NCBI GenBank assembly: GCA_944322555.1
Contig: CALUPJ010000050.1
Span: 1-36,715 of the forward strand
Direction: 5' to 3'
DNA length: 36,715 nt
Source of the DNA: Candidatus Gastranaerophilales bacterium
GTDB lineage: Bacteria; Cyanobacteriota; Vampirovibrionia; Gastranaerophilales; Gastranaerophilaceae
The notes below the pieces were generated by a model. That model had not been told where the DNA came from and ran no database searches. It saw only the letters and a program-made list of their open reading frames with translations. This document shows positions 15,098 to 35,102 of this stretch, one piece after another; position 1 is the first letter of the stretch, and each line of letters starts with the position of its first letter. Both the position numbers and the translations under genes were made by a program.

Positions 15098-15124
15098 TAA
15101 AGTTTTTCTGAAAAGTGCCGTTAT
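15098..15124 (+). promoter_or_regulatory. Sigma-28 (FliA)-type promoter
   Basis: TAAAGTTT starting at 15098, 11 nt, then GCCGTTAT ending at 15124. This matches FliA consensus TAAAGTTT-N11-GCCGATAA with exact spacing and two -10 differences. The block before it (AAAATCCTAAAG) is shared with the perfect promoter at 35076. The next plus-strand gene starts only at 15594; the 435-bp inverted-repeat segment lies between. Confidence 0.7.
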
Positions 15125-15139
15125 ATAAATCATTGATGC

Positions 15140-15574
15140 TAATGTAACACAATACATATTCTGTTACATTAGGGGTGTAATTTTACCCCTTAATGTCTTT
15201 TGAATACTGTATTTCGGGATTGTATTTTTCTTTCTCTTTTTTTTGCGGATTAAAAGAGAAAGAAAAATACGAAAAGAAAGAGAAAATACGCTATTGTTTT
15301 CTATGCCCTGACGGGCATTGGGGCAATATTTATAAGCTTTGTTTTACTTTAACCGGTAAACCGGTACTATCAGGCTCGCTATGGATGCTTACGCATCACG
15401 CTCGCCGGTATTGACTGTTTAGTAAAGGACGCAGCTTATAGTATAATGCCTTTCCCTTCTCTTATCATTATTTCAAGGCGGAGGTTTGTTTTTTTGCTGT
15501 ATTTTTATGTTCATGTCTCGCTCCTTATGTGGGTTTTAACCCTAATGTAACAGAATATGTATTGTGCTACATTA
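15140..15574. mobile_element. 435-bp segment bounded by 32-bp inverted repeats (MITE-like or invertible)
   Basis: The ends, 15140-15171 and 15543-15574, are inverted copies with 31 of 32 bases matching. Each end is itself roughly palindromic: TAATGTAACA, a 12-nt centre, then TGTTACATTA. The interior has no credible gene but many foldable pairs: GGGGTG/CACCCC-type hairpin at 15172, a 19-bp stem at 15222-15270, TGCCC/GGGCA near 15303, ACCGGT repeats near 15351, and GATGC/GCATC near 15384. It lies between a sigma-28-type promoter and a small gene. It could be a non-autonomous transposon with a TA target duplication, or an invertible cassette; no transposase or recombinase is present. The 73-residue ORF inside (15193) is not convincing. 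Confidence 0.55.
15222..15270. repeat. Perfect 19-bp stem hairpin
   Basis: Arms 15222-15240 and 15252-15270 are fully complementary around an 11-nt loop. One arm is pyrimidine-rich, the other purine-rich. A shortened variant of the right arm follows immediately (GAAAAGAAAGAGAAAATAC at 15271). It lies inside the inverted-repeat-bounded segment and would block or end transcripts coming from the promoter at 15098, or form a stable RNA structure. Confidence 0.75.
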
Positions 15575-15593
15575 CAACGAAAGGAGTTTCTCT

Positions 15594-15803
15594 ATGACAA
15601 TGATTGGTAAAAGTTTTAATTTGGTAAATGCTGCTTCTACAAAGAAATTAGCTGCTGCTGCAGAAAAAGGCGGAAAAAATGCTGAAAAAACAACCGCAAA
15701 AACTGCTAAAACAGAAGAAAAGGTTACAGTTAATGACTTTAGATTTGATAGTACTAAATTTCTTAAACAATTAAAAAATGCTTTTCTAAGCATCTTTAGA
15801 TAA
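15594..15803 (+). CDS. Small basic protein, unknown, downstream of sigma-28-type promoter
   Basis: A 69-residue protein. The ATG at 15594 is chosen because GAAAGGAG lies 7 bases upstream; an earlier in-frame start would lie inside the inverted repeat. Residues 17-45 are Ala/Lys-rich, and the C-terminal half (VNDFRFDSTKFLKQLKNAFL) is amphipathic. No signal peptide or membrane helix. I recognise no family. The gene follows the inverted-repeat-bounded segment by 19 bp and precedes another unknown gene by 68 bp. If the promoter at 15098 drives it, it belongs to the late flagellar regulon. Confidence 0.7.
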   Translation: MTMIGKSFNLVNAASTKKLAAAAEKGGKNAEKTTAKTAKTEEKVTVNDFRFDSTKFLKQLKNAFLSIFR

Positions 15804-15871: not shown

Positions 15872-16195
15872 ATGAAGCAATATCTTGATATCAATATGCT
15901 CCAATATACATCAGCTCAAAAAGAGGATGTTAAACAGGATGAGAATAAAAAACCAACTTACAATCTTTCTCAGGGAGATATTGTAAATATATTAAAAGGG
16001 TATGAAAAATACCTTAGATATAGCGAAATTAAAAAGCTTATTCCCGGTATTAGAGATAATACTGAAATGCAGCTTAGCGACGGTACAAAACTGAGATTTG
16101 TAGTACAGGATGAAGCTATTGCAATAGAAGCCAGAACACCGGTAAATGAAAGCTTCTACTGCTATTTTACAAAAGGGACACTTGAGCAGGAATAA
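15872..16195 (+). CDS. Hypothetical protein in the sigma-28-linked locus
   Basis: A 107-residue soluble protein with a good ribosome binding site (AAAGGG). The N-terminal 35 residues are polar and Lys/Asp-rich; residues 35-105 look like a compact domain (SQGDIVNILKGYEKYLRYSE, then MQLSDGTKLRFVVQDEAIAI). No membrane segment and no known motif. It follows the 69-residue gene on the same strand, and a terminator lies just after it, so the pair is probably one transcript. Function unknown; a motility role would be an inference from the promoter only. Confidence 0.75.
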   Translation: MKQYLDINMLQYTSAQKEDVKQDENKKPTYNLSQGDIVNILKGYEKYLRYSEIKKLIPGIRDNTEMQLSDGTKLRFVVQDEAIAIEARTPVNESFYCYFTKGTLEQE

Positions 16196-35075: not shown

Positions 35076-35102
35076 TAAAGTTTTCCTAAAAAATGCCGAT
35101 AA
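35076..35102 (+). promoter_or_regulatory. Perfect sigma-28 (FliA) promoter
   Basis: TAAAGTTT at 35076-35083, an 11-nt spacer, and GCCGATAA at 35095-35102. This equals the established FliA consensus TAAAGTTT-N11-GCCGATAA at all 16 positions. The gene start (35153) is 50 bp downstream. The 5' leader also holds TTATCGG (35131-35137), complementary to CCGATAA. The preceding bases AAAATCCTAAAG match those of the promoter at 15098. Confidence 0.85.

Follow-up and report, generated by a model that had tools for sequence, protein, structure and literature searches.

The Hin/fljBA flagellar switch of Salmonella uses a serine recombinase, Hin, and its invertible segment holds the recombinase gene together with an outward promoter. 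Mpi from Bacteroides fragilis, likewise a serine recombinase, acts on numerous invertible segments that carry promoters and are scattered near genes for surface structures. Small single-domain tyrosine recombinases (FimB/FimE) are found in the fim switch of Escherichia coli, a single locus with the promoter inside the flipping segment. The cwpV switch of Clostridioides difficile (RecV) has its promoter outside the invertible segment and none inside it; where the left repeat meets the interior, an intrinsic terminator is proposed for the OFF orientation, and 195 bp are enclosed by imperfect repeats of 21 bp (PMC2784873).

Here we describe a 435-bp segment within a stretch of 36,715 nucleotides from Candidatus Gastranaerophilales bacterium (contig CALUPJ010000050.1, positions 1 to 36,715; referred to as the window). 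It is a non-coding, non-autonomous copy of a family of elements bounded by two inverted 26-bp palindromic sites, designated P; the elements are accordingly called P-P elements. Like cwpV, the window element has its promoter outside, a non-coding interior that is flanked by inverted repeats and separates promoter from gene, and a putative tyrosine recombinase. A terminator at the junction of left repeat and interior in one orientation is a further similarity, here as a sequence-level prediction. In contrast to cwpV, the repeats are palindromes common to dozens of dispersed elements, and some P-P elements carry their own recombinase gene. The family shares small single-domain tyrosine recombinases with fim and, in the recombinase-bearing copies, also the promoter inside the flipping segment; elements with a sigma-70-like promoter near one end (the T end, see below) resemble fim-like switches. 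It differs from fim in its genome-wide distribution and in the sigma-28 promoter. The family is reminiscent of Mpi in that a single recombinase would serve numerous scattered segments, invertible and equipped with promoters, in the vicinity of genes for surface structures, but the recombinase linked here is of the tyrosine type and serine recombinases do not track the number of P sites. The recombinase gene and outward promoter within recombinase-bearing P-P elements correspond to the arrangement of Hin/fljBA, from which they differ in the recombinase type (tyrosine) and the promoter (sigma-28). Finally, P-P elements are short, non-coding and multi-copy with inverted or palindromic ends, as are MITEs and REPINs. 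Unlike these, they are linked to a site-specific recombinase and to flips at fixed sites, and the search turned up neither a transposase as their partner nor a clear duplication of the target. The window element is an inverted-repeat-bounded segment in a regulatory position, as the definition of an inverton has it.

The window element and its setting

The element spans positions 15140..15574 (no strand assigned), with a left arm at 15140..15174 on the plus strand and a right arm at 15540..15574 on the minus strand. The arms are 97% complementary and 365 nt lie between them. Each is palindromic in itself (left arm: 15139-15154/15157-15172, 94%) and contains the P core, TGTAACANAATANNTATTNTGTTACA, at 15143-15168 with no mismatch and at 15546-15571 with one; the core had no match in 100 shuffles of the window. 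P is composed of two 12-bp half sites and a 2-bp centre (TGTAACANAATA-NN-TATTNTGTTACA). The centre dinucleotide is CA in the left arm and TG, i.e. inverted CA, in the right arm, and the inner half of the right arm shows the same C-to-G variant as that of the left arm. Both P sites are proposed recombination sites. A preliminary description of this DNA had reported a 435-bp segment with inverted-copy ends, each of them palindromic, containing a strong 19-bp hairpin and inserted exactly between a sigma-28 promoter and a gene for 69 residues. All of these features were recovered; the arms measure 35 nt each.

The element can be divided into an H half (15139..15405, plus strand), which is common to elements of 392-413 bp from other Gastranaerophilales, and a variable T half (15406-15540). 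The hairpin (15222..15270, no strand assigned) has a perfect 19-bp stem at 15222-15240/15252-15270. It is perfect in 15 of 15 family copies, the window copy included, and five different arm sequences occur among them. Its loop was found in both orientations (AATTCGCAA in L039, TTTTGCGAATT in L040). Perfect inner hairpins together with a two-way loop suggest strand-switching or strong structural selection. Folded as single-stranded DNA, the window element is far more stable than its shuffles (z = -11.5), and no Rfam family exceeded its gathering score for this element.

The sigma-28 (FliA)-type promoter, TAAAGTTT-N11-GCCGTTA, is located outside the element at 15098..15123 on the plus strand and points into it. 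It has no mismatch to the pattern, for which 0.38 sites with up to two mismatches are expected by chance per window. Since FlgF/FlgG-like proteins are encoded in the window and the source genome contains about 20 good matches to sigma-28-type promoters, mostly directly upstream of small ORFs, we consider this promoter credible. Beyond the element, an ORF of 69 aa (15594..15803, plus strand) with the ribosome site AAAGGAG is presumably the controlled gene. It is followed in the same direction by an ORF of 107 aa (15872..16195, plus strand), which is possibly co-transcribed; neither had a family match. The 107-aa ORF has a single weak relative (28%) among 57 genomes. A search for an orthologous empty site of the window copy was unsuccessful, because minC and dacB, which belong to the flank region here, are far apart or on separate contigs in relatives. 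The same comparison via the 107-aa gene failed, since this gene is almost without relatives in the genus. Apart from the element, a large sigma-28-type regulon was noticed, in which TAAAGTTTT-N10-GCCG[AT]TA follows a conserved TGTAAANNTTTGTAA stretch; it comprises a site at 35076-35101 of the window and about 20 others in the source genome.

Distribution and orientation of P-P elements

The source genome (1.79 Mb in 142 contigs, G000, with the window as contig C50) contains 16 P sites and no match to a reversed control pattern. Further copies of the segment ends, for which the preliminary description had proposed a search, were thus found. Many of the sites lie no more than a few hundred bases from contig ends, where repeats are expected. 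Within the genus, the counts are 20 in G006, 25 in G010, 19 in G030, 14 in G022, 10 in G011 and 7 in G020, and many relatives contain no P site. The GTDB collection yielded 67 P-bearing stretches, almost all from Gastranaerophilales, and the named P-carrying genomes are nearly all labelled as Candidatus Gastranaerophilales or Melainabacteria MAGs. All genomes compared are assemblies of unnamed or metagenomic origin. From these loci, 51 P-P elements were collected. They range from 151 to 758 bp in several length classes, and their interiors fall into a number of sequence families that are unrelated to one another. The window copy is assigned to the class of 392-413 bp, in which about 270 bp of the H half are conserved and the T half is divergent.

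Many elements are situated directly upstream of pilin- or pseudopilin-like genes (MKKRGFTLAELLIVLG...), for example at L104, L157, L124, L126 and L153, and these genes form a multi-copy family in P-bearing genomes. The P-P element of 758 bp at L090 (G030:C27) lies between two divergent ORFs and has identical 22-bp outer flanks on both sides, a layout that would lend itself to switching back and forth between the two. In Defluviitaleaceae (L333, G066:C38), a 151-bp P-P segment has a related recombinase gene (37% identity) on one side and, on the other, an ORF that appears to begin like a secreted protein.

The centre dinucleotides of paired ends are inverted-complementary in 51 of 51 elements, mostly CA/TG or CC/GG, and only two pairs have a self-palindromic centre. 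A left arm differs from its mirrored right arm by 0.88 mismatches on average, compared to 2.58 with shuffled partners (5000 shuffles, minimum 1.92). These differences are mostly found in the outer half sites; the inner ones are nearly always mirror images of each other. The uniformly inverted centres fit site-specific strand exchange. Integration of a circle into a single P site was dismissed, as it would give directly oriented sites. Inspection by eye revealed no clear direct target-site duplication outside the arms of the 51 elements. The flanks beyond P tend to mirror the inner ends of the element. At one site, L122 and L118 read TTG[GGG]GTAAC and TTG[TAC]GTAAC, respectively, with the nucleotides just outside P copying the inner end. 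It appears as if palindromes had been corrected outward.

Opposite orientations were observed in two comparisons. The first concerns L124 and L153, two paralogous pilin loci of a single genome (BRZ_AT__bin28). Upstream flank and downstream pilin-like gene are common to both, but the 402-bp P-P segment of one is reversed relative to that of the other. The second concerns an orthologous locus of two related genomes, L118 and L122, with a right flank that is 96% identical over 2.9 kb; the element turns its T-type end to this flank in one genome and its other end in the second. All four loci are on metagenome-assembled contigs, and the contig of L122 breaks 28 bp inside the element. Flank palindromes of at least 7 nt matched the same end of the element five times and the opposite end five times (0.5 expected, maximum of 4 in 2000 shuffles), with opposite-end matches of 15 nt in L125 and 14 nt in L143. 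Matches to the opposite end are expected if the elements flipped after the match arose. At an orthologous site, the element is present in one genome (L156) and absent from another (L352); therefore, copies also come and go.

Consequently, the phase variation envisaged by the preliminary description finds good support at the level of the family, through opposite orientations at shared flanks, a matching tyrosine recombinase and a repeated layout. Inverted alleles, which it had suggested looking for, exist for family members in relatives (L124/L153 and L118/L122). The window element is predicted to flip in the source species as well. The choice originally offered between a phase switch and a MITE proved to be a false one: the segment is a dispersed repeat copy, and flips are seen in relatives.

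Tyrosine recombinases linked to P sites

In four elements (L078, L082, L083 and L097) a gene for a PF00589 tyrosine recombinase of 181 aa is located between the P sites (E 4e-26 to 2e-30); the copy in L078 is broken by a stop/frameshift. The element-borne enzyme comprises the catalytic domain alone, and its nearest solved chain is the XerC-like 4a8e. Residues R40, H129, R132, H155 and Y164 are invariant in the alignment of the element-borne proteins and are, by analogy, the putative catalytic residues. An outward sigma-28-type promoter is present between the recombinase gene and the adjoining P site in all four elements. It aims at a gene starting 14 nt past P in L078 and away from the left-hand 488-codon gene in L083. 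Of 60 recombinase loci, 13 have P at a distance of no more than 1.5 kb and none has the control pattern there; the P-adjacent loci include Firmicutes records (Anaerosporobacter, Clostridium and Defluviitaleaceae). Element-related recombinases match the NCBIfam models of the FimE type (E 2e-16 and 4e-15) and of the FimB type (6e-14 and 5e-13). Since the scores of 60 and 52 bits are far below the curated cut-offs of 222 and 221, they are not members of the FimB/FimE subfamilies. Relatives of this recombinase of about 180 aa were found among plasmids (2326 records, rich in Firmicutes) and phages (166 records); among the matches listed, the annotation goes no further than integrase or site-specific recombinase.

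In the recombinase tree, the element-borne proteins are set apart from a tight, chromosomal clade B (100/100 support), the loci of which have about 2 kb of conserved DNA in common between genomes. Clade B is carried by G000, G006, G010, G020, G022, G026 and G030. It is present in 7 of 9 P-rich genomes (at least five P sites) versus 0 of 25 P-poor genomes (fewer sites), with a Fisher p of 7e-6 that ignores shared ancestry, and the P-rich genomes may be close relatives. None of the other full-length recombinase hits from P-poor genomes belongs to clade B. The P-rich genomes without it are G011, which is 80% complete, and G014. The clade B copy of the source genome (G000:C134) is a fragment of 72 codons truncated at the contig edge, with 75-88% identity to clade B and at most 68% to other members. 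The occurrence of the recombinase family in all 14 P-bearing genomes was discarded as evidence, because 32 of 38 genus members carry some member of this family; clade B alone discriminates. We infer that the clade-B recombinase acts on P sites. A serine invertase, which the 12+2+12 geometry of the site had brought to mind by its resemblance to Hin sites, was also rejected, as the occurrence of PF00239 genes does not follow the number of P sites, and G011, G022 and G030 lack them. No transposase with the same ends was found, and the elements sharing these ends encode only the tyrosine recombinase.

Proposed switch and alternative readings

A sigma-28 promoter points in from outside at 9 of 51 elements, including that of the window, where about 0.15 such flanks are expected, and a gene with a ribosome site lies on the far side in all nine. 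The window copy contains a terminator-like hairpin, AGGGGTGTAATTTTACCCCT, where the left arm meets the interior (15171..15190, plus strand); it is read in the promoter-to-gene direction only. A second one lies in a conserved block of the H half (15304..15325, plus strand). Throughout the 392-586-bp elements, such hairpins run from H to T in 14 of 15 and from T to H in one of 15. Terminators and promoters are pattern matches, the U-tracts of the terminators are weak, and the tests of terminator polarity and sigma-28 promoters were designed after looking at the data. No sigma-70-like site is recognisable at the T (gene-side) end of the window copy. In L143 and L168, which lack an external sigma-28 promoter, a sigma-70-like promoter is present near the T end; others were identified by eye in the L124 group (TTGCAA-17-TATTAT) and in the 180-bp class (TTGCTT-17-TATAAT). 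In the 392-413-bp class, the four elements with an external sigma-28 promoter all turn their H end to it. This uniformity hints at a fixed orientation rather than free flipping, and may be due to selection or slow flipping.

Because no gene-side promoter is recognisable and the hairpins are encountered only in the promoter-to-gene direction, we read the window copy as a cwpV-like invertible terminator. It is probably OFF as assembled. A recombinase encoded elsewhere in the genome (here the truncated copy on G000:C134) would join the two inverted P sites and thereby flip the 377-bp interior. The transcript from the outside sigma-28 promoter would have to run through the element before it arrives at the 69-aa gene. 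As assembled, with the H end towards the promoter, it would meet the hairpins, and the gene is predicted to be OFF or attenuated. In the flipped orientation the hairpins would be absent from the transcript and read-through (ON) is predicted. This ON/OFF assignment is deduced from the sequence of the element. Other family members would switch by an outward promoter near one end, which is sigma-70-like or, in recombinase-bearing copies, of the sigma-28 type. On balance, we favour the view that the window segment is a non-autonomous inverton whose palindromic ends are sites of a small tyrosine recombinase and which gates the 69-aa gene.

It is unlikely that the segment is an ordinary MITE, a non-autonomous transposable element that inserted between promoter and gene, keeps its orientation at this locus and has no more effect on the gene than disruption or insulation. 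Such an origin would agree with a dispersed multi-copy family with inverted ends and many copies at contig ends, with the presence in L156 and absence in L352, and, for a MITE of a DDE transposon, with the terminal inverted repeats. However, it does not account for opposite orientations at shared flanks or for the recurrent position between a sigma-28 promoter and a gene in nine elements. Moreover, the ends are accompanied by a tyrosine recombinase instead of a transposase, and a clear target duplication is missing. Some of the remaining evidence could be taken for passive flipping, by replication strand-switching or homologous exchange at long perfect palindromes and without a dedicated recombinase. 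The inner hairpin loop occurs in both orientations (L039 and L040), hairpins are kept perfect by paired changes, and nucleotides beyond P copy the inner end as palindrome correction would. We nevertheless judge this mechanism to be quite improbable, since P pairs enclose or adjoin recombinase genes, in Firmicutes as well, clade B tracks P number, and the inverted centre dinucleotide in every pair fits site-specific strand exchange.

The very stable fold and the 19-bp hairpin, perfectly compensated in 15 copies, would also be expected of a structured 5' leader or a small RNA, selected for its RNA structure and unrelated to switching. There is hardly any room for this explanation: the same ends enclose unrelated interiors of 151-758 bp, both orientations occur beside the same gene, and no Rfam family reached its gathering score. 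Beyond these readings, one may tentatively consider a new class of mobile switches, in which small cassettes of a single-domain tyrosine recombinase gene and an outward sigma-28 promoter, framed by the palindromic P sites, and stripped derivatives of them, insert between promoters and genes throughout the genome and flip there, with one enzyme for both processes; at present this idea is rather doubtful.

In the open-access literature searched, we found neither a description of the P-P family nor a paper on phase variation in Gastranaerophilales (Melainabacteria). This uncultured gut lineage thereby gains what is probably a genome-wide system of switches, whose site, enzyme and targets can be named, the targets being pilin-like genes and sigma-28-dependent small proteins. 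A candidate role is also provided for a widespread, largely unannotated family of integrase-like proteins of about 180 aa, which is found by the thousands in Firmicutes-rich plasmid records and also in phages. Should the enzyme be responsible for spreading the elements as well, it would unite phase switches with mobile elements, which as a rule are treated separately.
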